Shown here: in pieces, positions 44,729 to 64,000 of the stretch | How the letters are laid out: each line of letters opens with the position of its first letter | How positions within the stretch are numbered: position 1 is the first letter of the stretch | NCBI RefSeq assembly: GCF_000622405.1 | Contig: NZ_JASF01000005.1 | Span: 868,001 to 932,000 of the forward strand | Reading direction: 5' to 3' | Length of the DNA: 64,000 nt | DNA from: Sulfitobacter donghicola DSW-25 = KCTC 12864 = JCM 14565 | GTDB taxonomy: Bacteria; Pseudomonadota; Alphaproteobacteria; Rhodobacterales; Rhodobacteraceae | Position numbers and translations under genes: made by a program | The notes under the pieces: generated by a model | What the model was told of the DNA's origin: nothing | The model's input: only the letters and a program-made list of their open reading frames with translations | Database searches by the model: none

Positions 44729-44739
44729 ATTAATTGACC

Positions 44740-47136: not shown

Positions 47137-49220
47137 GAGGCATCTCCTTTGCGGATCAGGCGCAAACTTCCGTCGCCTTGGCCAACGGCGCGATAGCCGG
47201 ATGTGACGATTGTGGTGGTCTCGTTTTCAACAATGATCGCGGGGCCTTCGACAAGCTGCCCAGCACTCATTGCTTTGCGATCTACTTCCTGCGCATCGAC
47301 GGTCCTACGCAAAGCAGCATCAAAGAACTGGCGTGTCTTCAGCGGTGCGGCAGGCGACCCAGACGTGTGACGCACAACAGAAGGTGTTTCAGGCAGAACC
47401 GAGGCCACGACAAGGGACCAGTTGGTGATTTCAATTCCAAGCCCGTCAATGACGCGCCCGAAAAGCGTTCGATAAGCGGTTTCAAATGCCGCGAGTATTT
47501 CGGACATATCCGCATCAACAAAGGTCTTGTATAACAGCGGAACTGGTATCTCCCAACCTTGCCCCGTATAGCGCATGAATGCCGTCAGCTGGGTAGTGGT
47601 TTGCGCATCTTTCGCACCAGCCTCTACAAAGGCTTTCGCCTCTTGCTCCATCTCCGCCAATGCGACATTGACCGAGGCCGCATCAAACGCGTCAAGCCTC
47701 TGGAATAATCCCCGCGTTGCCTCATAGCTGAACGGTGCTTTTAAAAAACCAATGGCCGACCCCACACCTGCACCGGGCGGGATGATCAACTCTTTGATGC
47801 CGAGTTTCTCGCACAAACGGCAGGCGTGCAAAGGCGCGCCGCCGCCAAATCCAATCATCGTGAAATGTTCAATATCGCGGCCATTCTCAACGGTGTGAAC
47901 GCGCGCGGCATTGGCCATATTTTCATCCACCATTTCAGTCACGCCAAAGGCGGCCTGATCGCTGGACATGTCCAAGCGGTTGGCCAGTTTATTGGTCACC
48001 GCCGCATCCGACGCAGATACCGACAATGGAATTGCGCCGCCCGCGAAATTATCGGGGTCCAAGCGACCAAGCAAAAGATTGGCGTCCGTTACGGTGGGTT
48101 CTTCGCCGCCCTTACCATAACACGCCGGACCGGGTTCGGACGCGGCAGAGCGTGGCCCGACCTGAATGCGGCCAAGCGTGTCTATCGACGCAATGGAGCC
48201 ACCCCCTGCCCCAATTTCAACCATCTCAACCACAGGCGTTGAAACGGTCATACCGGACCCTTTTTTAAACCTGTAAGTACGGGCAACCTCAAAGGTGTTG
48301 GCGGTCTTGGGCGCGCCACCTTCAATCAGGCAAATCTTCGCGGTTGTGCCGCCCATATCGAAAGACAGAACGCTGTCGAGCCCATGCCCCCGCGCAAAGT
48401 CCGCTGCAAAAATAGCACCGCCAGCTGGGCCGGATTCCAGCAAGCGCACGGGTTGTTCGGTGGCAACATCAACCGAGATTAGACCACCACCTGAATGCAG
48501 CATGAACACAGGCGCACCAATGCCGACCTCATTCAATCGAAGAACCAATCGGCCCAGGTAATCGGCGACTTGCGGCTGCACATAGGCGTTCGCAATGACC
48601 GTATTGAAACGCGGGAGCTCCCGCATTTGTGGCGATATCACCGATGAAATCGAGATCGACATGTCCGGTGCAGCGGCGCGCAAGGCAGCAGCCATCTGCA
48701 CTTCGTGGGCGTCGTTGGCGTAGGAGTGCATGAGGCCAATCGCGACAGCCTCGTAGTCACCAGCCAGCACCGTCGCGACCATTGCATCAACCTCAGCGGG
48801 ATCAAGCGACAAAAGAACTTCGCCATTTGGCCCCATCCGTTCGTTCAATGTCAGGCGGTCCTCGCGCGGGACCATCGGTTTTGGCAGCGTCAGGTTGAGA
48901 TCATATTGCTCAAACCGATTTTCCGAGCGCATCTCAATCACATCACGAAACCCTTCTGTCGTGATAAACGCGAGCTTCGCGCCGCGCCGTTCAATCAATG
49001 AATTGGTGACAAGCGTTGTCCCGTGGATCACCTGCGTGATGTCCGCCAATGCAAGCCCCGCTTTATCCGCCGCGATCTGAATACCATCGATGATCGCTTG
49101 CTCGGGCTGGGCATAATTGGTCAGAACCTTGCAGGTTGCCAAGCCACCAGCGTGCTCCAACGCTACATCAGTAAAAGTGCCGCCGATATCGACGCCAACG
49201 CGGTTCATAAGGTGTGTCAT
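47133..49220 (-). CDS. hyuA: hydantoinase A/oxoprolinase family protein (HyuA)
   Basis: This 695-residue protein starts with the nucleotide-binding VGVDIGGTFTDVALEH, then VIHGTTLVTNSLIERRGAK, FMLHSGGGLISVDVA and SFDMGGTTAKICLIEGG, the actin-like ATPase signature of HyuA. It provides ATP-dependent activation for HyuB. It starts directly at the stop of the FAD oxidase gene; ATG 49220 and ATG 49208 are both possible. Confidence 0.92.
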   Translation of the reverse strand: MTHLMNRVGVDIGGTFTDVALEHAGGLATCKVLTNYAQPEQAIIDGIQIAADKAGLALADITQVIHGTTLVTNSLIERRGAKLAFITTEGFRDVIEMRSENRFEQYDLNLTLPKPMVPREDRLTLNERMGPNGEVLLSLDPAEVDAMVATVLAGDYEAVAIGLMHSYANDAHEVQMAAALRAAAPDMSISISSVISPQMRELPRFNTVIANAYVQPQVADYLGRLVLRLNEVGIGAPVFMLHSGGGLISVDVATEQPVRLLESGPAGGAIFAADFARGHGLDSVLSFDMGGTTAKICLIEGGAPKTANTFEVARTYRFKKGSGMTVSTPVVEMVEIGAGGGSIASIDTLGRIQVGPRSAASEPGPACYGKGGEEPTVTDANLLLGRLDPDNFAGGAIPLSVSASDAAVTNKLANRLDMSSDQAAFGVTEMVDENMANAARVHTVENGRDIEHFTMIGFGGGAPLHACRLCEKLGIKELIIPPGAGVGSAIGFLKAPFSYEATRGLFQRLDAFDAASVNVALAEMEQEAKAFVEAGAKDAQTTTQLTAFMRYTGQGWEIPVPLLYKTFVDADMSEILAAFETAYRTLFGRVIDGLGIEITNWSLVVASVLPETPSVVRHTSGSPAAPLKTRQFFDAALRRTVDAQEVDRKAMSAGQLVEGPAIIVENETTTIVTSGYRAVGQGDGSLRLIRKGDAS

Positions 49221-50495
49221 TTAAATGGCCTTGAGTATCTGTTTGGCAGTGAACGCGGATTGATAAATACGCGACACGATGGGTGCCGACGCCACAGTCG
49301 ACATATCCGTCATCGGAAGTGGCAGGTCAGCCCGATCCATACCTGTCAGCAATCCGGCCATGGTTTCACCGAACATCGTGCCCGTAGTGATGCCACGGCC
49401 ATTATAGCCGATTGGCGTGAACAGGTTTGTCTCAAGCTCGTGAATACGTGGCAAATGGTCGGGCGTCATCGCAATCTGACCGTGCCAAGCTTCTTCGAAT
49501 TCAACCGGACCCAGTGTCGGGAATATCCGCGCGATTTGTTTCTTTGCCCAACGATGCGAAAGACCGCGATCTTTGGAGCCAACAACTTTGCCCATGGACC
49601 CAACGATAAGCCGATCATAAGCATCGCGCCGAATATTGAACATAATCTGGCCTGTATCCCAGAGACCTTGCTTGCCCGGCAAAATGTGACCCGCATCAGG
49701 ACCTAGGGGCTTAGTGGCGAGCTGAAAGTAATGGATCATCGTGAAGACGCGCTTCAGGTCAGGCCACAAGTCGTCCGTGTAGGCGTTTGTGCCTAGCACG
49801 ACGGCCTTCGCCGTGATTACGCCCTGATCCGTTTCCACTTTCCACAAGTCACCGTCACGCCGTAGCTTTGTGGCGCGTTCCCCTGTGCTGATTGTCGCCC
49901 CAGCGCCAAGTGCGGCGCGGGCTAGACCACGGCAATAGCCCATCGGGTTGATCGTCCCGCAGCGGTTGTCCAACAGTCCGCCGTGAAAATGATCTGTTCC
50001 GATCATGTCGGATACTTCGGCACGCGAAAGCAGATCGACCGGTTCGCCCAAACGCTGCCATTCCTTGTGGCGCTCTTTAAGGTCGGTGAAACCGCTTGGC
50101 CCGTGGGCAGCGTGGATTGTCCCTGTACGGGTCACTTCGCAACGAATTTGGTGTTTCTCGATCAGCGAGAAAACGTATTCCGGACCGCTCCCGAATTTTT
50201 TGATAAAGCGGGGGCCGTATGTCTCGCCCAGCTTCTCGCGCACCTTCTGGGGCGGCAACCAAAGCGCGGCATTGACCAACCCGCAATTGCGCCCTGACCC
50301 ACCAAAGCCAATTTGCTCGGCCTCCAGGACATGTGCTGACAAACCCTTTTCGGCACAGTGCAATCCCGTCGACAAACCCGTGTACCCACCGCCGACAATT
50401 GCAACGTCCACAGTGATATCTGCGCTCATTGGAGCGCGGTAGTCCTGTTCTTGTGCCGAAGCATCCCACAGCGAAATGGCATCCCTATCTGTCAT
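49221..50495 (-). CDS. FAD-dependent amine/amino-acid oxidoreductase (DAO family, PuuB-like)
   Basis: From ATG 50495 (GGAGAAG box) the protein has 424 residues with the FAD motif DVAIVGGGYTGLSTGLH and GFGGSGRNCGLVNA, close to the GASGRNGG of gamma-glutamylputrescine oxidase. The C-terminal GYNGRGITTGTMFGETMAG is typical of the group. It should oxidise an amine or N-alkyl amino acid with release of imine or aldehyde. As first gene of the long operon it probably starts the pathway. Confidence 0.9.
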   Translation of the reverse strand: MTDRDAISLWDASAQEQDYRAPMSADITVDVAIVGGGYTGLSTGLHCAEKGLSAHVLEAEQIGFGGSGRNCGLVNAALWLPPQKVREKLGETYGPRFIKKFGSGPEYVFSLIEKHQIRCEVTRTGTIHAAHGPSGFTDLKERHKEWQRLGEPVDLLSRAEVSDMIGTDHFHGGLLDNRCGTINPMGYCRGLARAALGAGATISTGERATKLRRDGDLWKVETDQGVITAKAVVLGTNAYTDDLWPDLKRVFTMIHYFQLATKPLGPDAGHILPGKQGLWDTGQIMFNIRRDAYDRLIVGSMGKVVGSKDRGLSHRWAKKQIARIFPTLGPVEFEEAWHGQIAMTPDHLPRIHELETNLFTPIGYNGRGITTGTMFGETMAGLLTGMDRADLPLPMTDMSTVASAPIVSRIYQSAFTAKQILKAI

Positions 50496-50560
50496 GTGTC
50501 GCTTCTCCACGTCCGAGTCAGAATCCTGTTATTGGGGGAGGTTGCACGAGTACGCTGTTT

Positions 50561-50578
50561 GTGTCAATATTCGAAATG
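50561..50578 (+). promoter_or_regulatory. regulon motif, copy 1 (candidate IclR-family operator)
   Basis: GTGTCAATATTCGAAATG lies between the divergent FAD-oxidase operon (start 66 bp away) and the rhodanese gene (start 32 bp away). It matches copy 2 at 54166-54183 in 16 of 18 positions and copy 3 at 59492-59509 in 13 of 18. A CCATATACCAATACAA block follows, similar to CCATTATACAATACAA next to copy 2. Confidence 0.65.
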
Positions 50579-50609
50579 ATCGTTCCATATACCAATACAA
50601 GGCAGACCC

Positions 50610-51014
50610 ATGAACAGACTCAAGATGTCGTCCTCACAGATGGTTTCCGATGCGCGCGCACGGATTGAAGAAATCGAAACCGCCGATCTTATTGGTATGT
50701 TGGATGACCCGAATGTTGTCGTGGTCGACATCCGCGATGTGCGCGAACGCCAGCGCAGCGGCTACATTCCCGGTAGCTTTCATGCGCCACGTGGGATGAT
50801 TGAATTCTGGGTTGATCCAGACAGTCCCTATTTCAAGGACATCTTTGCGCAGGACGGCAAGAAATTCGTTTTCCACTGTGCTTCTGGTTGGCGTTCCGCC
50901 ATCACAACTGCGACCTTGCAGGACATGGGCTTTGACGCTGCACACCTAAAAGAGGGATTTTCCAATTGGGAAAAACAGGGCGGCCCTGTCGAATTTCCCG
51001 AAAAGAAATCCTGA
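50610..51014 (+). CDS. rhodanese-like sulfurtransferase domain protein
   Basis: This 134-residue single rhodanese domain has VVVVDIRDVRERQRSGYIPGS and the active-site loop HCASGWRSA with Cys90. Rhodaneses move persulfide sulfur between cysteine and acceptors. Nothing indicates export. It is divergent from the FAD-oxidase operon and shares its motif-bearing promoter region. Its stop is 7 bp from the iclR stop (convergent). The sulfur chemistry fits the nearby C-S lyase and Mo enzyme. Confidence 0.9.
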   Translation: MNRLKMSSSQMVSDARARIEEIETADLIGMLDDPNVVVVDIRDVRERQRSGYIPGSFHAPRGMIEFWVDPDSPYFKDIFAQDGKKFVFHCASGWRSAITTATLQDMGFDAAHLKEGFSNWEKQGGPVEFPEKKS

Positions 51015-51021
51015 GCGCGCC

Positions 51022-51792
51022 CTAGCCGCGGCCCAGCTTGGCAGAAACAGAGCGGGCCGCGAGCGACACCAATCCGCCATACTGATCGACACCACCTTCG
51101 GGCAAATTGATATCCGGCACAGATATCCCAAGCGCGCCGACAGGTTCACCGCCTGGCAATGTTATCGCCGCACCAAAGCTAAGGATACGATCTCGGAACT
51201 CTCCAGTATCAAAGGCATACCCACGGGCCAGAGTTGCGGAAATGTCTGCGTCGAGCGAGGCAAGATCGGTCAGGGTCTTTTCGGTGTGATGTGTCAAGAC
51301 ACCGCTAACCTGGTCCCGCAGTTTGTTGAAATCCGCGGCCAAGATGGCTTTGCCGGTGCCAACACAATGCAACGGAGCTGAGCCACCGATCGCATTCCAT
51401 GATCTGATGGGTTTTTGGCTGTCTATCTTATCAATGTAGATCACATTGAGATTTTCGCGCACAGCGAGGTACACCGCCTCGCCGGTCTCTTGGGACAGGT
51501 GCAAAAGTTCAGGTGCAGCCAGTTCCCGCAAATTCAGGTTTTCAACGGACGCACGCCCGACCCGCCAAGTCTTCAGCGTTGCGGCATAGCTTTTGTCGGG
51601 GCGATGTTGCACGTAACCTAACGTGGTGAGCGTTTGCAGCAGACGAAAGGTGTTCGATTTGGTGAGCCCCAGTTCCTTGGACAGTTCGGTGACGCCTTTG
51701 CCATTTTGCGAACCAGCAAGGTTTTCAAGGATCAAAAGCCCCTTGGATAGGGTTGAGTCGACTTTCGGTTCTTTGGGGGCTGCATCGATCAT
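51022..51792 (-). CDS. IclR-family transcriptional regulator
   Basis: The 256-residue protein has the IclR winged helix (STLSKGLLILENLA, then GVTELSKELGLTKSNTFRLLQTL) and a C-terminal ligand domain (SQETGEAVYLAVRENLNVIYIDK, HCVGTGKAILA). It follows the Mo-oxidoreductase gene by 33 bp on the same strand, so it shares that promoter and motif copy 2. It is the only regulator gene inside the 41.7-59.5 kb cluster and therefore the prime candidate to bind the three motif copies. Confidence 0.9.
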   Translation of the reverse strand: MIDAAPKEPKVDSTLSKGLLILENLAGSQNGKGVTELSKELGLTKSNTFRLLQTLTTLGYVQHRPDKSYAATLKTWRVGRASVENLNLRELAAPELLHLSQETGEAVYLAVRENLNVIYIDKIDSQKPIRSWNAIGGSAPLHCVGTGKAILAADFNKLRDQVSGVLTHHTEKTLTDLASLDADISATLARGYAFDTGEFRDRILSFGAAITLPGGEPVGALGISVPDINLPEGGVDQYGGLVSLAARSVSAKLGRG

Positions 51793-51825
51793 AGTTTTCC
51801 GGTCCTGTTTTGACCTTGTTATCAG

Positions 51826-54132
51826 CTACCCTTCCTCTCCGAAAGGCGGCTGTTCATGCGCTTCTATTGGCGGCAGCGGATCTTCGAAGGCACGTAATTC
51901 AATCATCGCCGAATGCGCCGCCGGACTTTGCGTCAGCAAAGACGTGCGCAGGTCGTGGGTCAGGACGTTTGGATTGCCGTGCCGATCTCTGGCCTGCGGT
52001 GCATCAAAGTCCGGATCATACCACGCGCCGGTCCAAAGAAAAACACAGCCTGTGCTAATCTCGTCGGTGACCTTGGCCCCCGCCAAACACCGCCCCCGCG
52101 CATTGAACATCTCAACCACGTCCCCCGATTTGATCCCCCTTGCCGCCGCATCGTCTGGGTGGATCAAAACAGGTTCGCGGCCCGCGATCTTGTGACTTAG
52201 ACTATAGGCGCCATTATCAAGTTGACTGTGCAGCCGTGTCTTGGGTTGGCCAGAAAGCATTGCGAGGGGGAATTCACCGTTCGGATCATTGGCGCGGTCA
52301 CGCGGCGGGAACCACGCGGGATGCCCTTTGCAGTCCGTCAGATCAAATCCTGCGATTGCTTCGGAAAACAGCTCGATCTTGCCGCTAGGCGTTGGCAAGG
52401 CAAATTTCTTGGGGTCAGAACGATAGTCCGCCAAGAACACCTGTTCAGGGCTTGGATCAGGAAGGTGAACCACATCCCCAGCAAGAAAGCTCTGCCAATC
52501 GGGCAAGGTAATCCCTGCCTTTGTTGCGCGGCTGCGGGTGGTTTCCCAAATGTCGTTCAACCAGCCGTCAATGGATTTGCCATCCGTAAATTCTTCTTCG
52601 TTCCCAAGTCGCGCCGCGAGGTCCGCGTAAATGTCGTATTCTACCCGTGCCTCGCCTTGCGGCGTGACAAGTCTTGGCATGGGCACCAGCGCATTGTCCG
52701 ACTTCCCTGCCCCAAAATCGGTACGTTCCTGCGCCGCAGCGACAGGCAATACAATGTCCGCATGGCGCGCCGTGGCGGTCCAGTTCAACTCATTCACGAT
52801 AATGGTTTCGGGTGTCTGAAACGCATCGTGCAATCGGTTCAGGTCTTGATGATGGTGAAACGGGTTGCCCCCCGCCCACCACACCATCCGCGCATCCGGG
52901 AACGTCCTGTCCTGGCCCTGATACTGGTATGATCCAGCGGGGTTCAAAAGCATCTCGCTGATCATGGCCACCGGAATGAACTCACTGACAGGATTTACCC
53001 CCTGCGGCAGTGTCCCCCAGCGAAAAGGCCGTTCAATGTTTCCTATATTGGCGTTCACACCATAGCCAACCGTATACCCCCCACCCGGCAGACCGATTTG
53101 GCCAAGCATCGCAGCAAGCGCGATCGCCATCCACATTGGTTGTTCTCCGAAATCGGTCCGCTGCACGCCAGCCGCGACGCTAATCATGGTGCGCCCGCCC
53201 GCCATCCGACGCGCCAATGCGCGAATTTCAGTGGCGTCGACACCTGTCAGGTTAGAAGCCCACTCAGCGTCTTTTGGCTGATCGTCAGTCTCGCCCATAA
53301 GATAGGCGCGGACCTGTTCGAACCCGACTGTATAGTTCTGTAGGAACGCCAAATCGCACAGGTCTTCCTGTAAGAGCGTATGTGCGAGCCCCATCATTAA
53401 CGCCGTATCGCTGCCTGGCTGAACCGGAAGCCATCGTGCTGCTAAGACGTCTGCAGCATCACTACGCAGAGGGCTAATATTGACAAAATCAACGCCCGCC
53501 TTGGCACAGGCCTCAAGGTTGTCAGACATACGGTGCTTGGAAACGCCACCGTCACTCACCTGCGTATTGCGCAACGCCATGCCGCCAAACATGACAACCA
53601 AATCCGAGTGTTTTGCGATCACCGGCCAGCGTGTTGCCTGCGCCACATGTTGGCGATACGGGCCAACAATATGCGGCATCAACCCAAGGGCCGCATTGTA
53701 GCTGTAATTCCCTTCGGAACGCACGAACCCGCCTTGGGTGTTAAGAAAACGCTTAAGCTGGCTTTGGGCGTGATGAAACCGACCAGCACTTGACCACCCG
53801 TAAGACCCGGCAAAAATCGCTTTGTTGCCATGTGTCTTTCGAACCCGCGTGATCTCTTGCGCGATCAAATCCAAGGCACGGTCCCAGCTGACTTCGACGA
53901 ACACGTCACGACCGCGCGGCACAGCAGCAGGGCTACCATCAAGCCAGCTTTTGCGAACTGCGGGGCGCAAAATACGGGCCTTGCCATACAGGCTTCCAGC
54001 GATGTTCGCGTTAATTTCCGAAGCGGCCGGATCACTCTCATGCCCTTCGACAGCGATGATACGGTCATCAACTACGGTGGCGACCCCGATGCCCCAATGA
54101 CTCGCAGTCAGCTTTTTCTTGTGGTCGCTCAT
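51826..54132 (-). CDS. molybdopterin-dependent oxidoreductase of the DMSO reductase family (BisC/TorZ-like)
   Basis: From ATG 54132 (AAGG box) the protein has 768 residues and no twin-arginine signal, so it should be cytosolic like biotin sulfoxide reductase. It begins TASHWGIGVATVVDDRIIAV. The SYGW segment (Tyr111, Trp113) and Ser145 in EGNYSYNAALG correspond to Tyr114, Trp116 and the Mo-ligand Ser147 of DMSO reductase. There is no N-terminal iron-sulfur cysteine cluster. Such enzymes reduce S- or N-oxides. The extension to 54252 covers the promoter and was rejected. Confidence 0.9.
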   Translation of the reverse strand: MSDHKKKLTASHWGIGVATVVDDRIIAVEGHESDPAASEINANIAGSLYGKARILRPAVRKSWLDGSPAAVPRGRDVFVEVSWDRALDLIAQEITRVRKTHGNKAIFAGSYGWSSAGRFHHAQSQLKRFLNTQGGFVRSEGNYSYNAALGLMPHIVGPYRQHVAQATRWPVIAKHSDLVVMFGGMALRNTQVSDGGVSKHRMSDNLEACAKAGVDFVNISPLRSDAADVLAARWLPVQPGSDTALMMGLAHTLLQEDLCDLAFLQNYTVGFEQVRAYLMGETDDQPKDAEWASNLTGVDATEIRALARRMAGGRTMISVAAGVQRTDFGEQPMWMAIALAAMLGQIGLPGGGYTVGYGVNANIGNIERPFRWGTLPQGVNPVSEFIPVAMISEMLLNPAGSYQYQGQDRTFPDARMVWWAGGNPFHHHQDLNRLHDAFQTPETIIVNELNWTATARHADIVLPVAAAQERTDFGAGKSDNALVPMPRLVTPQGEARVEYDIYADLAARLGNEEEFTDGKSIDGWLNDIWETTRSRATKAGITLPDWQSFLAGDVVHLPDPSPEQVFLADYRSDPKKFALPTPSGKIELFSEAIAGFDLTDCKGHPAWFPPRDRANDPNGEFPLAMLSGQPKTRLHSQLDNGAYSLSHKIAGREPVLIHPDDAAARGIKSGDVVEMFNARGRCLAGAKVTDEISTGCVFLWTGAWYDPDFDAPQARDRHGNPNVLTHDLRTSLLTQSPAAHSAMIELRAFEDPLPPIEAHEQPPFGEEG

Positions 54133-54165
54133 CCGCCTTACCCTTGTGCCATTATACAATACAAA

Positions 54166-54183
54166 CATTCCAAATATTGACAC
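54166..54183 (-). promoter_or_regulatory. regulon motif, copy 2 (candidate IclR-family operator)
   Basis: On the minus strand GTGTCAATATTTGGAATG lies 34 bp before the Mo-oxidoreductase gene and 51 bp before the divergent lyase gene. CAATA and TATTG around it give partial dyad symmetry (54157-54179). It is the closest match to copy 1. Confidence 0.65.
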
Positions 54184-54233
54184 GACGCACTCTGACTGGC
54201 ATCGTATCAAAAGACAATACACGTGAGTCACAA

Positions 54234-55418
54234 ATGCCCAATCCCACATCAAACATCGCAGACGACCTCGTCCAAATGGGGCGCCCAGACCGCACCGCAG
54301 GGCGGCACGTTAATATGCCGCTCGAACTGGGTTCGACCCATGTTTTCGACACGCTCGCTGACTTTGAGGCCGCACGTGACGCGCGGTATGTCAGCGGCAC
54401 AATGTATTACGGACGCTATGGAAACGCGGCCTCGTTCAAGCTCGAAGAGATGCTCGCGCGCCTTGAACACGCGGACGCTGTCACGCTGACGTCATCAGGC
54501 GTTGCGGCCATTACCATGGCCCTTCTGACCTTCGCACGTCCGGGCGCACATCTGTTGGTTGCTGATCATGTCTACGGCAACACCCGCGCGTTTTGCGATG
54601 GTGTCTTGACCCGTCAGGGTGTCGATATCGAATATTTTGATCCAATGATTGGCGCAGATGTCGCGGATCTGATGCGCGAAACGACCTGTGCTGTAATGTT
54701 CGAAGCACCGGGATCTGGCACATTCGAAATGCCCGACATTCCGGCAATCGCCATTGCAGCGCGTGCGGCCGGAATTCCCTCGATCTTAGACGGCACATGG
54801 GCGACCCCGATTTTCTGCCAACCACTGACACTGGGCGTTGATATTGTCGTGGCCTCTATGTCGAAATACCTCAGCGGGCATTCCGACTGTATGATGGGGA
54901 TGATCGCATCCGGTGCAAAACACGCCAAAGACATCCGCCAAACCACTATGGCGATTGGTGACAAAACCGGCGGCCAAGAGGTGTTCTTAGCTTTGCGCGG
55001 CTTACGTACACTCAAGATGCGGATGGCGTATTTTGATACAGTCGGGCGCGATATGGCGAAGTGGTTCTCGAACCAACCGCAGGTTAAAACGGTCTTGCAT
55101 CCCGCATTTGAAAGCTGCCCCGGCCACGCCAATTGGAAACGCGATTTTAGCGGTGCCTCGGGCCTGTTTGGCGTTGTGTTTCATCCCTGCACTGATGATC
55201 AAATCCGCACCTTTGTAGATGCCCTGCACCATTTCGGCATCGGCGTCAGTTGGGGCGGTTATGAAAGCCTTGTTTTGCCCGTCACGCCACAGCGCAGCGC
55301 AAACACATGGCATGAGGAGGGCCAGCTTGTCCGCTTCAACATCGGCCTTGAAGAACCTGAAACCCTCAAAGCAGACCTTATGGCCGCCCTTCCACATCTC
55401 AACACTGCACCGGAGTAA
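54234..55418 (+). CDS. cystathionine beta/gamma-lyase family PLP enzyme (Cys/Met metabolism)
   Basis: From ATG 54234 the protein has 394 residues. It shows the family pattern TMYYGRYGNAASFKLEEMLA, the aromatic DHVYGNTRAFCDGVL, the aspartate in ILDGTWATP and the PLP lysine Lys211 in SMSKYLSGHSDCMMG. The group includes cystathionine beta-lyase, methionine gamma-lyase and related C-S lyases. Such enzymes release a thiol and an enamine, which RidA can hydrolyse; gamma-lyases yield 2-oxobutyrate, a source of propionyl units. The start at 54144 was rejected because it covers the motif. Confidence 0.9.
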   Translation: MPNPTSNIADDLVQMGRPDRTAGRHVNMPLELGSTHVFDTLADFEAARDARYVSGTMYYGRYGNAASFKLEEMLARLEHADAVTLTSSGVAAITMALLTFARPGAHLLVADHVYGNTRAFCDGVLTRQGVDIEYFDPMIGADVADLMRETTCAVMFEAPGSGTFEMPDIPAIAIAARAAGIPSILDGTWATPIFCQPLTLGVDIVVASMSKYLSGHSDCMMGMIASGAKHAKDIRQTTMAIGDKTGGQEVFLALRGLRTLKMRMAYFDTVGRDMAKWFSNQPQVKTVLHPAFESCPGHANWKRDFSGASGLFGVVFHPCTDDQIRTFVDALHHFGIGVSWGGYESLVLPVTPQRSANTWHEEGQLVRFNIGLEEPETLKADLMAALPHLNTAPE

Positions 55419-55421
55419 ACC

Positions 55422-56060
55422 ATGCACAACAAGATCGACCATTTCGCAATCGGCGCGGACACGCTGGACCAAGGCGTTGCCGATATGAAAACCAAGCTGG
55501 GCGTGACAGTGCCGCGCGGTGGCAAACATGACGCGATGAGCACGCATAACTGCGTAATGCAGTCCGGCAACGAAAGTTTCTTTGAACTTATCGCGATTGA
55601 TCCCGATGCACCAGCCGACCCCGGCCGGACACGCTGGTTCACCTTGGATGACCCCGCAACGCAGGAACGGCTTGCGGCGCGGCCCCGCGCGCTCTGCTGG
55701 GTTGTTGGTACGGATGATCTGGACGGCATAATCGCCGCCAGCCCTGTTGATCTGGGCGAGGTGGTCTTGTTCACACGCGGCGAACGCTCTTGGCGGTTGA
55801 CTGTGCCCAAAGACGGCCACCTACCGATGGGTGGCCTGTTGCCTGCGTTCATAGAATGGTCGCCTGGGCCGCATCCCAGCACAGGCCAGCAGGATCTGGG
55901 TGTTACCCTTGATGCTGTCCAGCTGACACACCCAAACCCAGATGAACTGACAGGTATTTTGCGGGCGCTTCAGGTGGATCATCTGGCGCAGGTCAGCAAA
56001 GGCGATGCCGCACTTTCGTTTGCCTTGAACACACCAAAGGGCCTCGTTGTCGTCGACTAG
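55422..56060 (+). CDS. VOC/glyoxalase-like domain protein
   Basis: This 212-residue protein starts HNKIDHFAIGADTLDQGVADM, a VOC-type fold of the Glyoxalase_3 group, with FFELIAIDPDAP and a second half resembling FIEWSPGPHPST. It follows the lyase gene by three bases with a CGGAG box. Members are isomerases, lyases or dioxygenases that bind a metal. The catalytic type is unclear here. A strong terminator follows. Confidence 0.8.
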   Translation: MHNKIDHFAIGADTLDQGVADMKTKLGVTVPRGGKHDAMSTHNCVMQSGNESFFELIAIDPDAPADPGRTRWFTLDDPATQERLAARPRALCWVVGTDDLDGIIAASPVDLGEVVLFTRGERSWRLTVPKDGHLPMGGLLPAFIEWSPGPHPSTGQQDLGVTLDAVQLTHPNPDELTGILRALQVDHLAQVSKGDAALSFALNTPKGLVVVD

Positions 56061-56080
56061 TCATACCGCAAAACGACAAG

Positions 56081-56113
56081 ACGGCGCCGCCCCACCCAGG
56101 GCGGCGCCGTTTT
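56081..56113 (+). terminator. rho-independent terminator between the VOC gene and the convergent permease gene
   Basis: ACGGCGCCGCCC-CACCCA-GGGCGGCGCCGT is a perfect 12-bp stem with a 6-base loop followed by TTT, 20 bp after the VOC stop codon. It may also serve the convergent permease operon, though the T-run is on the plus-strand side. Confidence 0.85.
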
Positions 56114-56124
56114 CATGTCGGCAT

Positions 56125-57207
56125 CTAATGCGCCGCGAGCGCCATCCGACCCTTTAGGTATTCCCCATACTGGCCCAGCGAAAAAATGAAGACCCAATAG
56201 ATCGCCGCAACAAAGAAGAACACTTCGATGTAATAAGGTGCCCAGGCAGCGGTGCCAAAGGCCGTCTTGCCGGACGCGAGGATGTCAAAGAAGCCAATGA
56301 TCGTCACAATGGCCGTTTCCTTAAACGTCACAACAACCATGTTGATCGTGCTGGGCAACGCATGACGAAACACCTGCGGCAGGACGATGCGCCCCATAAT
56401 GCTCCAATAGCTGATGCCTAATGCCTTACCGGCCTCAAACTGGCCCTTGGGGATTGCCTGAAACCCACCACGAAAGACTTCGGCCTGATAGGCTGCGAAA
56501 AACAACGCAAACGCGATGATCACACGCCAGATTTTATCCCCTTCGAGCCAGTCCGGCAGAAGCAACGGCACAACAACCGCGGCCGTAAACAGCGTCGTCA
56601 CCAATGGCAGTGACCGCACCGTATCAATGATGATCATTGCGAACCAACGCACCACGGGCATGTCTGATCGACGCATAAGCGCGAACCCCAGACCCATCGG
56701 CATGCCAAGCAAGACAACGGCGGCAAACAGGAATAGCGTCAGCGACAACCCGCCCCATCCGTCCGTTGTCACCTGTTGCAGCCCCAACAGACTCCCTTCC
56801 ATCAACAGGTAGTATGTGGCGAACCCAGCGCCCCACAACACCGCAAGACGTTTTGCCTGCCACATCTGGGGCAAACAAGAAATCAGCACGGTCAGAACAA
56901 TCGCGACCGCCGCGAGCGTCGATCGCCAGTGTTCTTCAAACGGATAGGTGCCAAACAAGATCAAACGATGGCGCGCATCAATGACCGACCAGCAAGCCCC
57001 GGCATGTTCGTCACACATGCCGACGTTTTCTTCGCTCCAGACCGCACGGAACACCGCCCAGTCCAGAAAGGTCCACGCGATATAGACTAATATCGCGAAC
57101 ACAATGACAGAGATGGCCGCCGCCAAAGGCGAACCGAACCCCTGTTTGACAAAGGCTTTGCGGGCTAGCTGAAAACGGCTGGGGGGTGAAATGTCGGTCA
57201 TGGCCAT
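56125..57207 (-). CDS. amino-acid ABC transporter permease (BztC/AapM type)
   Basis: The 360-residue inner-membrane protein has a long N-terminal part and a permease core with GLQQVTTDGWGGLSLTLFLF, MIIIDTVRSLPLVTTLFTAA and the EAA loop KGQFEAGKALGISYWSIMG. The pattern matches BztC/AapM of general L-amino-acid or Glu/Gln/Asp/Asn transporters. It is the last gene of the bztABC-like operon, and no ATPase gene follows. The start overlaps none of BztB, whose stop is 2 bp away. Confidence 0.92.
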   Translation of the reverse strand: MAMTDISPPSRFQLARKAFVKQGFGSPLAAAISVIVFAILVYIAWTFLDWAVFRAVWSEENVGMCDEHAGACWSVIDARHRLILFGTYPFEEHWRSTLAAVAIVLTVLISCLPQMWQAKRLAVLWGAGFATYYLLMEGSLLGLQQVTTDGWGGLSLTLFLFAAVVLLGMPMGLGFALMRRSDMPVVRWFAMIIIDTVRSLPLVTTLFTAAVVVPLLLPDWLEGDKIWRVIIAFALFFAAYQAEVFRGGFQAIPKGQFEAGKALGISYWSIMGRIVLPQVFRHALPSTINMVVVTFKETAIVTIIGFFDILASGKTAFGTAAWAPYYIEVFFFVAAIYWVFIFSLGQYGEYLKGRMALAAH

Positions 57208-57208
57208 G

Positions 57209-58345
57209 CTAGTGTTCTTTCAATTGCAAACGCGCATTCAGCCAGTTGGTGAAGATCGCGATGGAATAGTTAATGGCGAGGAACGTCAGCATCAAAATCA
57301 GGATCAGCTCAAGCGTTTGACCGGACTGGCTGATAGAATTGACTGTGATGTAGAAAAGATCGCTAAAGCCAATCGCGATGCCAATGGTTGTGGCCTTCAT
57401 CATGAATATCCACTGATTGCCAAGCGGTGGAATGATGCTGCGCAGCGCCATCGGGACTTTGATCCGAGACCAGATTGACACACGAGACAGGCCCAACGCC
57501 TGCCCCGCCTCAACCAAGCCGCGTGGCACTTGTGCGAGGCCACCGCGCACGATTTCAGCGATATAGGCGCTGCCATACAAGGTGATCGAAACTACAAGCG
57601 CCAAGAGTTCGATTGGAACAGAAATGCCGCCCTGAAAGCGAAGCCCTTGCAACGCTGGAATGGAAAAGAAAGGTGCGCCAACCGGCCGTAGAACAACCGT
57701 AGTAATCAGGCACAAGACGACCGACGCCCCGAACCACGTTGCCAGCCCGCGCCACAGCGAGGCCTTAGAGACAATCAAGCCCACAGCGATTGCGATCGAC
57801 GCCAGAAGGAGGCCAACAGCGACATTCGGGCTGATATTCAAACCTGGCAACATCAATCCCCGTCCAGAGAGGAACGCGACATCTGCGAGGTTTACCGCCT
57901 GACGAGGCCCCCCCATGTGGATTAACACCGCATACAGAAAAACCGCCTGAAGGATCAGTGGAATGTTGCGAAAAATCTGCACATAGACGTTGGCAGCCAA
58001 GCTGAGCGCGGGATGACGCGCGTCACGCAACGTTCCAATGATGAACCCGAAGAACGTGGTGGAAATAATGCAAATGAAGCCAACGAATAATGTGTTCAGC
58101 AGGCCGATGAACAAGGTGTAATAATATCGGTCGCTAATGGATCTCTCGATCAGGGAAAATGAATAGTCCCAACCGGTATCTCGCTCCAGAAACGAAAAGC
58201 CGCTCGTCATGTTCATCTGGGTTAAGTTGTATTGCGCGTTTGACACCGCCCCCCAGACAACAAGGACTGTTAGAACGACAATAATGGATTGAATAGTAAG
58301 ACTGCGGCGCTTTGCGCGCCCGCGTAATTCTTCGGCAGTCGCCAT
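57209..58345 (-). CDS. amino-acid ABC transporter permease (BztB/AapQ type)
   Basis: From ATG 58345 the protein has 378 residues with about eight membrane segments, an IFRNIPLILQAVFLYAVL stretch and the EAA loop RGLVEAGQALGLSRVSIWS. It is the partner of the BztC-like permease. The upstream TTG at 58360 was not chosen. Family assignment to BztB/AapQ is clear from length and gene order. Confidence 0.92.
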   Translation of the reverse strand: MATAEELRGRAKRRSLTIQSIIVVLTVLVVWGAVSNAQYNLTQMNMTSGFSFLERDTGWDYSFSLIERSISDRYYYTLFIGLLNTLFVGFICIISTTFFGFIIGTLRDARHPALSLAANVYVQIFRNIPLILQAVFLYAVLIHMGGPRQAVNLADVAFLSGRGLMLPGLNISPNVAVGLLLASIAIAVGLIVSKASLWRGLATWFGASVVLCLITTVVLRPVGAPFFSIPALQGLRFQGGISVPIELLALVVSITLYGSAYIAEIVRGGLAQVPRGLVEAGQALGLSRVSIWSRIKVPMALRSIIPPLGNQWIFMMKATTIGIAIGFSDLFYITVNSISQSGQTLELILILMLTFLAINYSIAIFTNWLNARLQLKEH

Positions 58346-58423
58346 GATCTCATCCCTCAAGAGCCAAAGACAATAAGGATGGACCGCCCGACCAACTCGG
58401 GCGATCCACTGGTTCAGGTTCGC

Positions 58424-59455
58424 TTAGTCAAGGATCGGCGCGTACAGGACACCGCCATGGCTCCACAGGCTGTTAAGACCGCGCTCAAGGCCATACGGGC
58501 TGTCCTTACCAAGGTTGCGGTCATAGATTTCCGCAAAGTTACCGACGGCCGCGATCATCTCTTTGGCCCATGTGTCGCGCATGCCCAAACGCTCACCCAT
58601 ACCCGGCTCAGCACCCAGCAGGCGTGCGACGCGCGGGTTTGGCGGGTTAGCAGCCATTTCTTCAACGTTGGCAGATGTGATGCCTTCTTCTTCGGCGATC
58701 AACAGGGCGGCAATCATCCAGTTAACCGTATCAACGAAACCGTCGTCGCCTTGGCGCATCGCAGCCGAAATAGGTTCGCTCGACAATTGGTCGTTCAGGA
58801 TGACGTGCGCATCAGGATTGTCCAACTCGGTCGCACGCAGAACCGCAAGGTTAGGCCCCCAGCCTGCAAACGCATCACAGCGGTTTGCCAAATAGGCAGA
58901 GCGCAATTCGGCTTGGCTTTCGTAAGACACCATCGTGTGTTCAACACCGATAGAGGCCATGTGGTTTGCCGCCAGACGTTCGATCGTCGTACCCGCTTCT
59001 ACACAGACAGTGCCGCCTTCAAGGCCGGTTGCATCCGTGATGCCCAGATCGCCATGCGCCATAAACTGTGTGCCGCCAAAGAAGTATGGCAGGCTGAACT
59101 GAAGACCCAGCTCTGTATCACGCCCCATGGTCCAGCCTGTCGCCTTGATGATGACATCGACATCGCCGGACTGAAGCGCCGGAAAACGCTGTGCCCAGCT
59201 GAGCGGCACGATCTGGTTGGCGTCGGGATCACCCAGAATGGCGGTGGTCAGCGCGCGACACAAATCAATGTCGAGGCCTTTCCATTCGTTCTGGTCGTTC
59301 ACTTCGACGAAGCCGAAATAGCTCCCGTTATGACCCGAACACAGCATCGTGCCGCGCTCCATGATTTGTTGGACGGTCGCACTTTGAGCAGACGCAATCT
59401 GAGGCGCGATGACACTTGTTGCCGCAATCGCACCGGCTGCAATAATATTCTTCAT
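58424..59455 (-). CDS. amino-acid ABC transporter substrate-binding protein (BztA/AapJ type)
   Basis: From ATG 59455 (GGGAGAG box) the protein has 343 residues with a signal peptide (MKNIIAAGAIAATSVIAP, QIASAQS). Typical AapJ segments are RGTMLCSGHNGSYFGFVEV, GLDIDLCRALTTAILGD and DVDVIIKATGWTMGRDTELGL. The binding pocket should hold an alpha-amino-acid group. Its promoter has TTGACT (59532-59527) and a -10-like CATGCT overlapped by regulon motif copy 3. The 53 extra residues of the longer frame were rejected. Confidence 0.93.
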   Translation of the reverse strand: MKNIIAAGAIAATSVIAPQIASAQSATVQQIMERGTMLCSGHNGSYFGFVEVNDQNEWKGLDIDLCRALTTAILGDPDANQIVPLSWAQRFPALQSGDVDVIIKATGWTMGRDTELGLQFSLPYFFGGTQFMAHGDLGITDATGLEGGTVCVEAGTTIERLAANHMASIGVEHTMVSYESQAELRSAYLANRCDAFAGWGPNLAVLRATELDNPDAHVILNDQLSSEPISAAMRQGDDGFVDTVNWMIAALLIAEEEGITSANVEEMAANPPNPRVARLLGAEPGMGERLGMRDTWAKEMIAAVGNFAEIYDRNLGKDSPYGLERGLNSLWSHGGVLYAPILD

Positions 59456-59491
59456 TTCACTCTCCCTTTTGTGCCGCATATCAGCACGATT

Positions 59492-59509
59492 GTATCGATA
59501 TTCAGCATG
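59492..59509 (+). promoter_or_regulatory. regulon motif, copy 3, overlapping the transporter promoter
   Basis: GTATCGATATTCAGCATG matches copies 1 and 2 in 13 or fewer of 18 positions, keeping the ATATT core and the final ATG. For the minus-strand promoter, TTGACT at 59532-59527 and a 17-bp spacer place the -10 at 59509-59504, inside the motif. This is the expected place for a repressor. It is 37 bp upstream of the binding-protein start. Confidence 0.5.
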
Positions 59510-59532
59510 TAAGGGAAAATTCATTGAGTCAA

Positions 59533-60530: not shown

Positions 60531-62081
60531 TCACATCATGTGAAACCGAACTTCATCAGAAACGCCGTCCGGTGGCGAAGCAAGTAAGGCTTTGATTTCT
60601 GCTGGTGACACCAACAGAGATGCGAAGCCCTGTTTCGATGCGAGCCGAAACCCCGACGGAAGATGTCCCCCGAACAGCAGTTCCAATATTACATACAGTT
60701 TTGCATGGCACTGCTCAGCAGCCTTTGCCAAGTCCACGAAACCAACCGGGGCATCGGCAACTTCTGCGAACTGGGCCTTAATGAACTGGAACAGATTTTG
60801 GATCCCGCGACCATCCACAGACTTGCCGATCTTACTCTTCAGAATGTCGTGATCCTGAAGACGTTTCAGCAGTCCCAAGTCAATCAATGACTGCACCATT
60901 GGCCGTGAAGCATGGAGGACATATGGCAGCTGCGACACTGGCACTGAATGTTTGGTCAACTCAATGATCTCTTTTGCGTCTGCATAATTCACGAGTGTCC
61001 GCTCCGCTTTTGAAGCCCCCTTCCCCTCTGAAAGTAACCCGGCAGCACGCAGGATATTTCTCAAGGTCACCGGATGGATATGCTCATATGAAGCGATGTA
61101 GGCCACACTGCTTATCTTCGGTTCAGTGACAGCTGACCCCAGTAACATCTGTCCCTTTGTGACTGCCATATTGTTGATAATCTGCTCCCGCAGCAGCGTG
61201 CGGATCGGCCCCGGATCCTTTGACAACCGACTGGCCCCCAACCAGCTGTAGAGCATCCCGTAGGTAGGGCCCGGACGGGCCAGATGTTCCTCTTCACCAC
61301 CAGCCTCTATCATGGCCAGCAAAGCCTCACTGATCGCTTCTGAACCCTTACTGACGATAGGAAACGCGGTTTCGCCTGCAACGTCCCACAGCGCCTCCGT
61401 CATCTTCGCAGCGGACTGCTTTGAACCAAAGGCAATCACCCCGCCAAGCATCTCAGTCGCACGTGCCGCCTGATCAATATGTTGGCGGTCAAGCCACTCA
61501 GGACCTTGTTTGCCTGCAATGCGATCAAGCACATAAGACTGCAAAGCAGATACTGGTCGCGGCGCACTATCATAAGGCGACACCAACTCAGTTCGGATCT
61601 CTGGCATCATCGCCTGAAGCTCGAGTGCAATATCATCCCAGATGCCCCGACGAACATCGCGGAGCGGCACCCCATGAGTTTCACATGTACGCACAGAGGC
61701 AAACCGCCAATGAAGGCGATGACGCAACGCTGCCATCGGGCGCTCTTGGCCAGCCATATCCTCAGCAAGGCAATGCGGGCAGATACGGGTGACAGCCCCG
61801 GTGGTGAACTCAGCTGAAAATTCAAGGTTGCGCAGCGTGAAGCGGCGTTTTCCAACAGCAGTTATTGTGTTGTGGAAAACCGGTGCTGGATCTTGCCCGG
61901 TGATGTCGCATAAGCGCGCCACGGCATCATGCTTCCCACGGGAAAGATCTAACAGCGGGATCTCCAAATCATTCAGAAACGGGACGAGGCGGCCTCCCGT
62001 ATGGAAGGCCGCCTGGCGTGATGCCCAAGAGAGGGGCGTTTCATCGTTGATGAAAGGCAAAAGGGGAAAGAGCTTGGCCAT
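60531..62081 (-). CDS. tniQ: TniQ-family transposition protein
   Basis: The 516-residue protein has the TniQ N-terminal part (LLPFINDETPLSWASRQAAFH) and a zinc-binding pattern RICPHCLAED with RTCETHGVPL. TniQ/TnsD proteins choose target sites for Tn5053- and Tn7-like elements. It follows tniB by 2 bp. At 516 residues it is longer than the about 400-residue TniQ of Tn5053, closer to TnsD-like lengths, which hints at specific target recognition. Confidence 0.9.
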   Translation of the reverse strand: MAKLFPLLPFINDETPLSWASRQAAFHTGGRLVPFLNDLEIPLLDLSRGKHDAVARLCDITGQDPAPVFHNTITAVGKRRFTLRNLEFSAEFTTGAVTRICPHCLAEDMAGQERPMAALRHRLHWRFASVRTCETHGVPLRDVRRGIWDDIALELQAMMPEIRTELVSPYDSAPRPVSALQSYVLDRIAGKQGPEWLDRQHIDQAARATEMLGGVIAFGSKQSAAKMTEALWDVAGETAFPIVSKGSEAISEALLAMIEAGGEEEHLARPGPTYGMLYSWLGASRLSKDPGPIRTLLREQIINNMAVTKGQMLLGSAVTEPKISSVAYIASYEHIHPVTLRNILRAAGLLSEGKGASKAERTLVNYADAKEIIELTKHSVPVSQLPYVLHASRPMVQSLIDLGLLKRLQDHDILKSKIGKSVDGRGIQNLFQFIKAQFAEVADAPVGFVDLAKAAEQCHAKLYVILELLFGGHLPSGFRLASKQGFASLLVSPAEIKALLASPPDGVSDEVRFHMM

Positions 62082-62083
62082 GA

Positions 62084-63058
62084 TCAGCTTACCCGCTTTC
62101 GCGTCTTGGAACGGCGCTTCACGACCAGCTCATCATCCTCATCAGCATCCGGTTTGAGAAGCCAGAACTGCTCTGCATAGAAGACGTTCTTTTGCGCGGT
62201 ACAGCCCTCCTGCATGCCCCAAGCGCGTGCGAAGTGATCAATCGTAAGGTCGGCATCATCCGCAACAAGAGCCATCTCAATAGCATGCACAATAAGTTCA
62301 ACGGCGCGACCGAAACGGTACCTGGCCCCATGAAACAGGCGCGCAATAAGATCGGCCTCAACTGGCGCGCCACGCCCTGCCCGGTCGCAATAATAAGTCA
62401 AGATGTCCTTGAACAGTTCACCGTCGACTTCCTCCGACAACGTCGGCAGGATGATGGTCGAGAACCGGCGCTGGACCTGAGGGTCCGTCCGAATAATCTT
62501 GCCGAGATCCTCCGTCCCGGAAAGAACGACAACAAGCGCGTCATCGCCCTGCATCAATGACTTGAGGGCGCGCAAGATCATGCCACGGTCAGCGCAGAAG
62601 AGATCATGTGCTTCGTCGATCCAAAGTACAGCGGTTCCCATCAGGCGCAGGCGTTCCTGCAAGAGCTCCCAGAGTGCCCATGCCTCTTTGCGTTTTGAAG
62701 CCTCGACGTATCCAGTCTTCTGCAGCAGCGCGAGCGTCATACTCTTGAATGTCGCAGGGCTGGGCACCGAACATTTGATGTATCGCGGCTGACCGTACTC
62801 GCCCTCGGCCAAAACCGGTTGCTTGGCCAATGCACGATCCACAAGGTGCGATTTCCCGCTGCCAGGGCCACCGATCATCAGGACACCCCGGGTCTCCCCA
62901 GTTTTTGTGACACGGAGAGGTTCAGGCATCAAATTGCCCAGTTCGTCCCGCTGCAGCAGCCGTTCGAGATGCTCTGTGATCTCGGCGTCACGCTCAGAAG
63001 CAATGTGGAAATTTCGTACTGTTTCGAGAGTACGGGCGATGGTTGCGTGGTCAGTCAT
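62084..63058 (-). CDS. tniB: TniB-family AAA+ transposition ATPase
   Basis: From ATG 63058 (GAGGAAG box) the protein has 324 residues with Walker A MIGGPGSGKSHLVDRAL and Walker B AVLWIDEAHDLFC. TniB/TnsC-type ATPases link target choice to the transposase. It starts within 3 bp of the tniA stop codon. Confidence 0.93.
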   Translation of the reverse strand: MTDHATIARTLETVRNFHIASERDAEITEHLERLLQRDELGNLMPEPLRVTKTGETRGVLMIGGPGSGKSHLVDRALAKQPVLAEGEYGQPRYIKCSVPSPATFKSMTLALLQKTGYVEASKRKEAWALWELLQERLRLMGTAVLWIDEAHDLFCADRGMILRALKSLMQGDDALVVVLSGTEDLGKIIRTDPQVQRRFSTIILPTLSEEVDGELFKDILTYYCDRAGRGAPVEADLIARLFHGARYRFGRAVELIVHAIEMALVADDADLTIDHFARAWGMQEGCTAQKNVFYAEQFWLLKPDADEDDELVVKRRSKTRKRVS

Positions 63059-63060
63059 GA

Positions 63061-64000
63061 TCAATCTTCCTCAACTTTGAGAGACGGTGATGTCGTCGCG
63101 GATGCGACCTTGGGTGCAGGGGCGTTCTGGGTGGCATCAGTGCGTGATGAAGGGCCAGCTGCTGGATCGGCAGACTGTGCATCAATGGCATCGGGGAGTT
63201 CACGTCCGACTTTGCCGGCGGTCTGCTTCGGGGCCTTGCGCTCAAAGAACTCAACACCTGCGATTACCCGGGCTTCGGCGCGGTCCGCAGCATCGCCAGA
63301 CCAGTCCTCAAGATTAAGGCTGGCGGCGGACATTGCCTTGGCATTTCGTGATGCAATCGCTTTGATCGCCTCACGGACGGCAACCATGTCCACACGGTTC
63401 GAAGCTGGGCTTGCTGCACGTACATGACGTACTGCGGTCAACCACGTCTGCGCAGCTACCCCTTCGAGGGATGGATCTACCGCAGGGATTTCAAACCAGT
63501 CCGGCCCCATCTTCACCGAAATTGCTCCGATGTCTTTCGGATGCCAACGGACATCCACTTTGTGCGGGTCCTTGCGACGCATCCAGGTCGCCAAAGCTTC
63601 AGATTGGTACCGCACGCCGAGAACGGTGATCCCCGTTTTCTCAAGGTTGTATTTCTGGCGCTGGCCAAAAACGAGCCGCGAATGATACATGTCCGGTGGG
63701 CTCTGAACGCCATACTTCTTGCTCAGACGGCGCCAGCACTCGATTGGTGTTTCTCCATCAAGGCTCCGGTGTGGCGTATTGTGATAGATATCAACAACCC
63801 AGCGAATGAAGGCGAAAGTGACGTCCTCCAGCTTCATTGCAGCCCGCTTCTCAGGGTCTGCATCCCCTTTTTCACGAATGTTGGAAAACGTTCGTCCCGG
63901 CATGCGTGCCGCCAAATCCGTAGCCATCGTCCCGAAGACCCGTTCAATCATTCCGCGAAGCTCTGGCGTGCCGTTGATTGCGATTTCAGCCGCAATGCCA
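63061..64000 (-). CDS. tniA: TniA DDE transposase/integrase, N-terminal part outside the window
   Basis: The frame is open from the right edge (GIAAEIAINGTPELRGMIER) to the stop at 63061; about 312 codons are present. ELRGMIERVFG holds the third acidic residue of the DDE site. NTPHRSLDGETPIECWRRL and a Mu-transposase C-terminal beta-barrel follow, then a Pro/Ala-rich tail. It is the catalytic subunit of a Tn5053/Tn7-like transposon. The element's terminal repeat adjacent to tniA must lie beyond 64000. Confidence 0.92.
   Translation of the reverse strand, partial: GIAAEIAINGTPELRGMIERVFGTMATDLAARMPGRTFSNIREKGDADPEKRAAMKLEDVTFAFIRWVVDIYHNTPHRSLDGETPIECWRRLSKKYGVQSPPDMYHSRLVFGQRQKYNLEKTGITVLGVRYQSEALATWMRRKDPHKVDVRWHPKDIGAISVKMGPDWFEIPAVDPSLEGVAAQTWLTAVRHVRAASPASNRVDMVAVREAIKAIASRNAKAMSAASLNLEDWSGDAADRAEARVIAGVEFFERKAPKQTAGKVGRELPDAIDAQSADPAAGPSSRTDATQNAPAPKVASATTSPSLKVEED

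Follow-up and report, generated by a model that had tools for sequence, protein, structure and literature searches.

The DNA sites bound by regulators of the IclR family have been collected by Suvorova and Gelfand (2021), who found them by phylogenetic footprinting near gene starts, in the zone from -20 to -80, and whose main text (PMC8222616) gives the consensus GKTYCRYW3-4RYGRAMC, with tandem units often centred 18-22 nt apart and interpreted as two dimers on one face of the DNA; for binding as a tetramer, the same text cites Lu et al. 2010 and TtgV. Another described member, BhcR of Paracoccus denitrificans, is presented in PMC11323563 as the activator of the beta-hydroxyaspartate cycle genes, which it adjoins and which are read from divergent promoters. 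Here, we describe three operator-like elements in a window of 64,000 nucleotides of the genome of Sulfitobacter donghicola DSW-25 (contig NZ_JASF01000005.1, positions 868,001 to 932,000; all positions below are those of this whole stretch), where they stand in the control regions of a catabolic gene cluster containing a gene for an IclR-family protein of 256 aa (iclR, 51022-51792, minus strand). We propose, with a probability of about 0.86, that this IclR protein is an inducer-released repressor, which would act on three 40-bp operators, control its own gene and serve five transcription units from these three sites.

Each of the three control regions holds one 40-bp operator, composed of two 19-bp near-palindromes that are separated by 2 bp and centred 21 bp apart. 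Operator A (50560-50599, plus strand; units 50560-50578 and 50581-50599) lies between a flavin adenine dinucleotide (FAD) oxidase gene, here called fad, on its left and a rhodanese gene on its right; operator B (54145-54184, minus strand; units 54166-54184 and 54145-54163) lies between a molybdoenzyme gene (moly) on its left and metC on its right; and operator C (59470-59509, minus strand; units 59491-59509 and 59470-59488) lies upstream of the transporter genes. The unit spacing, in a register chosen from the alignment, is 21 nt at all three window sites and so falls within the 18-22 nt given in the main text of PMC8222616, and the site centres are approximately 30 (rhodanese), 32 (moly) and 34 (transporter) nt from the gene starts, inside the -20 to -80 zone of that text. 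The window units match the published consensus at 11-14 of 17 positions, and the means by site class and unit were 11.7-14.3 of 17, compared with 7.3 ± 1.9 for random sequence; these are near, not exact, matches, of the AT-rich palindromic kind close to GTTYCRYW3RYGRAAC or TGTYCRYW3RYGRACA that the same text describes for tandem sites. Judged by sequence, the 40-bp site fits the published tandem type and is a known kind of site. Words beginning hydantoin-, reductase-, cystathionine- or Rhodobacter- are absent from the main text of PMC8222616, in whose supplement the regulator may nevertheless stand.

The IclR protein, used as a query, fetched orthologous clusters, and alignment of the control regions of 10 orthologous loci gave a conserved 40-bp block, with 1.18-1.31 bits per column within the operator and 0.14-0.63 in the flanks. 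The same gene set surrounds iclR in L032-L034, L036-L038, L041 and L042 (L and G are our numbers for loci and genomes), with no RidA gene matched in L041 and the transporter genes inverted in L036 and L037, and partial clusters are found in L031 and L035. Two models, R1 and a weight matrix, were both trained on 26 related sites with the window excluded. In bits, forward and reverse, R1 gave 28.2/12.5 for operator A, 30.1/16.3 for operator B and 18.6/13.1 for operator C, and the weight matrix gave 49.1/28.6, 49.6/35.8 and 29.6/18.5, respectively, the next-best place in the window scoring 5.8 by weight matrix. Operators A and C match their own reverse complements at 24 of 40 bases, a level reached by 75 of the 63,961 window 40-mers; operator B is less symmetric (only 18 of 40, a level that 2,862 window 40-mers reach). 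One GTGTCAA[CT]AT start is found in each of the 10 fad/rhodanese (A) regions and each of the eight metC/moly (B) regions. In the eight transporter (C) regions, the two-unit site was assigned as the best-scoring place, with low scores (-18.5 to 8.4) under a matrix made from A and B sites; in L041, this matrix had first picked a wrong place, and the second-best place, taken as the site, agrees with R1, but was itself part of the R1 training set. These eight assignments are weaker than those of the A and B sites.

The initial annotation had pointed to an 18-bp motif shared by the three control regions, at 50561-50578, 54183-54166 (minus strand) and 59492-59509, and the three 18-mers do occur at these positions and on these strands. 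Copies 1 and 2 share 16 of 18 bases, as claimed; 300 rounds of mononucleotide shuffling of the two regions gave a mean of 12.0 and a maximum of 15, so that this match is beyond chance. Copy 3 was correctly placed, but it shares 13 of 18 bases with copy 1 and 13 with copy 2, which is close to the shuffle mean, and as an 18-mer alone it is near chance and unconvincing by itself. It was rescued by a test independent of the window, the weight matrix from the 26 related sites, which identifies it as unit 1 of operator C, although on the opposite strand from that originally read; because unit 1 is a near-palindrome, the copy can be read on either strand. The pattern GTRTCRATATTYRRMATG has three perfect matches in the window and seven at up to three mismatches, compared with 1.23 expected, a count that is not independent because the pattern was derived from the three sites themselves. 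The shared motif is real, but its true extent is larger, since it forms unit 1 of the two-unit site, and we rejected the 18-bp unit as the full element because conservation and symmetry reach 40 bp.

The pattern was not found to be common at unrelated genes of the same genome: in the 3.54-Mb sequence, R1 reported only operators A, B and C at E ≤ 10 (150 of 830 first-look candidates scored; 150 candidates were scored in most of the genomes searched), all three also being found on the reverse strand. A pattern search of the same genome at up to three mismatches found operators A and B and not C, and its reversed control found none. Weak R1 matches are present in 21 of 39 other genomes of the genus, the best of which (16.1 bits) is only 2.5 bits below operator C, a small margin under R1. 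Such weak matches in genomes without the cluster agree with the published IclR type: in the genus, at least six of 30 of these places, matched by hand, lie just upstream of another IclR-family gene, so that the motif does not belong exclusively to the IclR of this cluster; one weak match outside the cluster (G457:C28) scored 2.4 by weight matrix (L096). Among the 906,186 positions scanned by weight matrix, 73 rows reached 20 bits (overlapping loci counted twice), and six of these do not adjoin the start of a pathway-type gene (L070, L068, two of L040/L069, L094 and one of L095), while one further L095 site adjoins only a 30%-identical relative of fad.

The presence of the operator was then compared with that of the regulator gene. 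IclR orthologues (E ≤ 1e-60) were found in 17 of 394 genomes of the family, including the genome studied here, and in none of 35 other genomes of the same genus (best E 3.3e-25); the gene set itself is found in Rhodobacteraceae, Roseibium, Hoeflea and others. An operator was taken as present at 20 bits or more by weight matrix, and a region was held-out if its site lay outside the 26 training sites, L071 and L072 being held-out regions from genomes whose other sites served in training. In genomes with an IclR orthologue, the operator was present in 33 of 35 held-out control regions, namely upstream of fad in 16 of 16 (window, L039, L071, L073-L078, L080-L082, L084, L085, L088 and L092), upstream of moly in 10 of 12 (window, L071-L075, L078, L079, L081-L083 and L119, the last counted as IclR-present because its genome, G400, has IclR) and upstream of the transporter in all seven seen (window, L071, L089 and L097-L100). 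Excluded from these counts were the duplicates L051 (same place as L032), L086 (same as L069) and L087 (a near twin of L075), the L078 transporter (cut by the locus end), the L076 moly region (truncated), the L069 moly region (39% identity only), L111 (no fad gene) and G383 (a partial moly match). Where the enzymes are kept and the IclR orthologue is absent, the operator was present in one of 10 regions (fad 1/7, moly 0/3); these control genomes were those without an IclR orthologue match that have HyuB at 74% identity or more (eight genomes) or moly at 63% or more (three genomes), and their best IclR identity was 34%. The Fisher probability was 5.9e-7 for all regions and 6.9e-5 for the fad regions alone, values not corrected for kinship. 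These comparisons tie the 40-bp element to the pathway and to the IclR gene, and support the view that the operator follows the IclR orthologue across genomes, with the exceptions L119, L083 and L109. The self-regulated IclR regulon proposed in the initial annotation gains support in the same way: the motif is kept, not missing, upstream of orthologous clusters that retain IclR, and iclR would be read from the operator B promoter.

Clusters that have been split carry the same association. The pathway of G327 is spread over three places far apart, with moly and iclR at approximately 2.19 Mb, metC-voc-rhodanese together with fad-hyuA-hyuB-sdr at approximately 2.75 Mb and the transporter at approximately 1.76 Mb, and the only R1 matches at E ≤ 1 are three, one each before the transporter, moly and fad/rhodanese; a fourth site, which R1 missed and the weight matrix detects, lies 140 bp ahead of the point where iclR is mapped to start. 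In G168, fad is on a separate contig and the operator is again present. Marinovum algicola (G455) has a second cluster (L071, G455:C43:317000-336000), which is visible from the acyl-CoA synthetase as far as the transporter and also carries the three operators. In other layouts, some iclR genes have their own site, scoring 22.3/23.4 in L079 and, more weakly, 17.7 in L085; the weight-matrix scan found no site upstream of iclR in L035, L039, L069 (the L040 genome) or L077, and upstream of iclR in L080 there is a single unit only (5.1). We also noted that the L076 cluster of G400 has its acyl-CoA synthetase and permease matched in pieces and its moly and metC shortened, with operator A intact, and looks decayed or misassembled; the full-length moly gene of this genome, without an operator, is on another contig (L119).

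A number of observations weigh against our proposal. Operator C is weak, and the pattern search is blind to sites as weak as this, so that further weak sites are possible; R1, for its part, missed a 22-23-bit site in G327. The L119 moly gene is orthologous and lacks the operator in a genome that keeps IclR, and the L083 moly region has only a 7.1-bit remnant. Conversely, L109, from a genome without an IclR orthologue (G232), keeps a 26.6-bit site before rhodanese/fad, its symmetry lost (reverse -0.5), and has a second, symmetric site (15025; 18.9/27.4) between the rhodanese gene and a different IclR-family gene. The top R1 match in G461 is the site of a paralogue, and sites before paralogous IclR genes reach 26.4 bits (L068), equal to many C sites (22.3-38.4). 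The L109 sites, kept beside another IclR-family gene, and the paralogous IclR genes that have similar sites elsewhere could be taken to mean that a paralogous IclR protein is what binds; another candidate is the LysR-type protein encoded just outside the cluster (39771-40643). We consider either of these very improbable, given that the operator follows the IclR orthologue and is of the published IclR type. The LysR protein was rejected as the regulator, because no lysR relative (E ≤ 1e-5) was found in the five loci, one of them a twin, that reach at least 2.4 kb beyond the ABC (ATP-binding cassette) ATPase gene; nine other loci with this gene end too soon to judge.

The related sites before paralogous genes were seen in L068, L090, L091, L094 and L101-L104, where they score 7.7-26.4 bits and precede, by 66-100 bp, the mapped start of an IclR paralogue that adjoins an ABC ATPase gene; they probably belong to another regulon with a related operator. 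In G461 (L069, 7590-7629), an operator beside a 60%-identical IclR gene precedes genes whose predicted products are a NapC-type cytochrome, a delta-type chaperone and a more distant S/N-oxide reductase; here, this type of site stands before another set of genes. A fourth operator-like site in G459 (L070, 6998-7037; 23.0/28.3) lies directly before an alpha/beta hydrolase gene, and two symmetric sites in G031 (L095, 5755 and 10252) are near another IclR-family gene, one of them adjoining a gene of FAD-oxidase type.

Conservation around the sites points to probable promoters that overlap the operators. For rhodanese, the probable promoter (50542-50570, plus strand) has a -35 box TTGCAC at 50542-50547, a 17-bp spacer and a -10 box CAATAT at 50565-50570 within operator A; TTG stands 18 bases ahead of the operator at 22 of the 26 A sites, compared with three at the next-best offset. 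Facing it, the probable fad-operon promoter (50539-50567, minus strand) would have a -35 box TTGACA (50567-50562) within operator A and a -10 box CAACCT (50544-50539). At operator B, the probable moly-iclR promoter (54174-54202, minus strand) combines a -35 box ATGCCA (54202-54197) with a -10 box CAATAT (54179-54174) within the operator, with TG at offset -17 in 16 of 18 B sites, and the probable metC-voc promoter (54177-54205, plus strand) combines a -35 box TTGACA (54177-54182) within the operator with a -10 box CATCGT (54200-54205). The probable transporter promoter (59504-59532, minus strand) has a -35 box TTGACT at 59532-59527 and a -10 box CATGCT at 59509-59504, at the start of operator C, and in the C sites TTG is found at offset -23 in nine of 15 and at -24 in four of 15. 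The bases CAA at operator positions 6-8 are present in 25 of 26 A sites, 17 of 18 B sites and none of the 15 C sites, where no pathway gene is read divergently, and GTGTCAA, read on the opposite strand as TTGACAC, is likely to be the -35 box of fad and metC.

It could be asked whether the motif is nothing other than the -35 and -10 boxes of similar promoters, with no site for a regulator, because GTGTCAATAT contains CAATAT and, on the opposite strand, TTGACA, and because TTGAC with CA 23 bases on (the CA judged by eye) is kept in six of the seven fad upstream regions without an IclR orthologue. However, those regions, L109 excepted, have lost the remainder of the 40-bp element, and the conservation, the symmetry and the second unit extend far past the boxes, so that this explanation is a partial truth, largely refuted, and in its full form we give it hardly any weight. 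The motif is likely to be part core promoter, with the remainder the mark of the regulator; the 10 bases of GTGTCAATAT in copies 1 and 2, which also hold the likely boxes, would for this reason be nearly invariant. This suggests that, when the regulator orthologue is lost, the operator disappears and the core promoter persists, and suggests how one operator came to fit over two overlapping divergent promoters.

Under our proposal, a tetramer of IclR, as two dimers side by side, would occupy each 40-bp operator, the 21 bp between unit centres corresponding to about two helical turns. Bound IclR would cover the -10 box and the start region of the rhodanese, moly-iclR and transporter promoters and the -35 box of the divergent fad and metC promoters, so that a single operator could close two overlapping face-to-face promoters. 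A pathway metabolite would free IclR from its operators and allow joint induction of uptake, S-oxide reductase, lyase and ring-opening enzymes, with iclR, transcribed from operator B, controlling itself. Repression is not the sole possibility for a protein bound here. Relative to the fad and metC promoters, the operator would span approximately -28 to -67 (by hand, from the probable boxes), a position that activators also use, and BhcR (PMC11323563) is an IclR-type protein that activates in Paracoccus; both of these also count against the repressor model, and IclR might then be an activator, or act in both senses, repressing rhodanese, moly-iclR and the transporter and activating fad and metC. 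We regard this as unlikely, while giving it more credence than any other alternative, because at rhodanese, moly-iclR and the transporter the operator overlaps the start region and the probable -10 box, which argues for repression, and because transport and catabolism genes would respond oppositely. The five transcription units named in the initial annotation are in line with the gene order and gaps, from which we infer them, and would be served by the three operators.

Membership of the regulator in the IclR family is clear from its PF09339 (53.7 bits, cut-off 22) and PF01614 (108.8 bits, cut-off 24) domains, both above the gathering score. It matches eight NCBIfam models, under the cut-off for all eight, the best being BhcR (146.6 bits), and identity with BhcR was rejected because the equivalog cut-off is 350. 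TtgV, another member of the family, is a distant sequence match (E 1.1e-4), with PDB entries 2xrn and 2xro, which we take to hold the TtgV operator complex. As with BhcR (PMC11323563), the regulator adjoins its presumed targets and divergent promoters, and the gene set differs from that of the beta-hydroxyaspartate cycle.

The molybdoenzyme gene, with operator B in its promoter, is the first gene of the moly-iclR unit, and iclR follows it after 33 bp; the molybdoenzyme is a molybdopterin S/N-oxide reductase of BisC/TorA type (51826-54132, minus strand; TIGR00509 904 bits, below the cut-off of 1017.55), in which inspection by eye revealed no leader of the Tat (twin-arginine translocation) type. 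The rhodanese-domain protein (50610-51014, plus strand) matches PF00581. On the other side of operator A, the FAD oxidase of the DAO family (49221-50510, minus strand), for which the best model is L-pipecolate oxidase AmaA (NF050086, 447 bits, cut-off 600), is the first gene of a long operon, followed by HyuA and HyuB of hydantoinase/oxoprolinase type (45490-49220, minus strand; PF01968, PF05378 and PF02538), for which the best models are the caprolactamase alpha and beta subunits (NF050156 and NF050157, both below cut-off). The remainder of this operon (41718-45486, minus strand) encodes a short-chain dehydrogenase/reductase (SDR), an acyl-CoA synthetase, a RidA-like protein and an amino-acid ABC ATPase. 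To the right of operator B are the genes for a pyridoxal phosphate enzyme of cystathionine beta-lyase type (TIGR01324 384.3 bits, above the cut-off of 365.9) and a glyoxalase-like protein of the vicinal oxygen chelate (VOC) type (PF13468), together at 54234-56060 on the plus strand, and operator C precedes an amino-acid ABC transporter (56125-59455, minus strand; PF00497), consisting of a binding protein (58424-59455) and two permeases.

This enzyme set, with its S-oxide reductase, pipecolate-oxidase-like flavoenzyme, caprolactamase-like HyuAB, beta-lyase, RidA and rhodanese, suggests a cyclic sulfur amino acid S-oxide as the substrate, a reading drawn from resemblance to protein families, for the most part below the curated cut-offs, and from general chemistry. 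Chondrine, a 1,4-thiazane carboxylic acid S-oxide, is obtained from seaweeds. As a speculation that we ourselves consider doubtful, the regulon might govern a new route for a chondrine-type compound of seaweeds, with the S-oxide or an early product as the inducer of IclR. Uptake by the ABC transporter would be followed by S-oxide reduction by the BisC-like enzyme and ring oxidation by the pipecolate-oxidase-like flavoenzyme; the SDR could then form a lactam, which ATP-dependent opening by HyuAB would convert to S-carboxymethylcysteine; the MetC-like lyase would cleave this product, while RidA would remove the enamine. Literature searches for such a pathway gave no matching description among the papers listed. 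The comparison provides a precise operator and regulon, open to testing, for a set of catabolic genes not yet characterised, and the three operators could be used as reporters to find the substrate.

Two further features of the genome were noted. A second relative of HyuB, 60% identical, is encoded at G000:C5:217894-219528. Adjoining the cluster, at 60531-63951 of the window, are genes for TniQ, TniB and a protein with a Mu-type transposase C-terminal domain, and these transposition genes, together with the absence of an IclR orthologue from the 35 other genomes of the genus, suggest that the cluster may have been gained horizontally.

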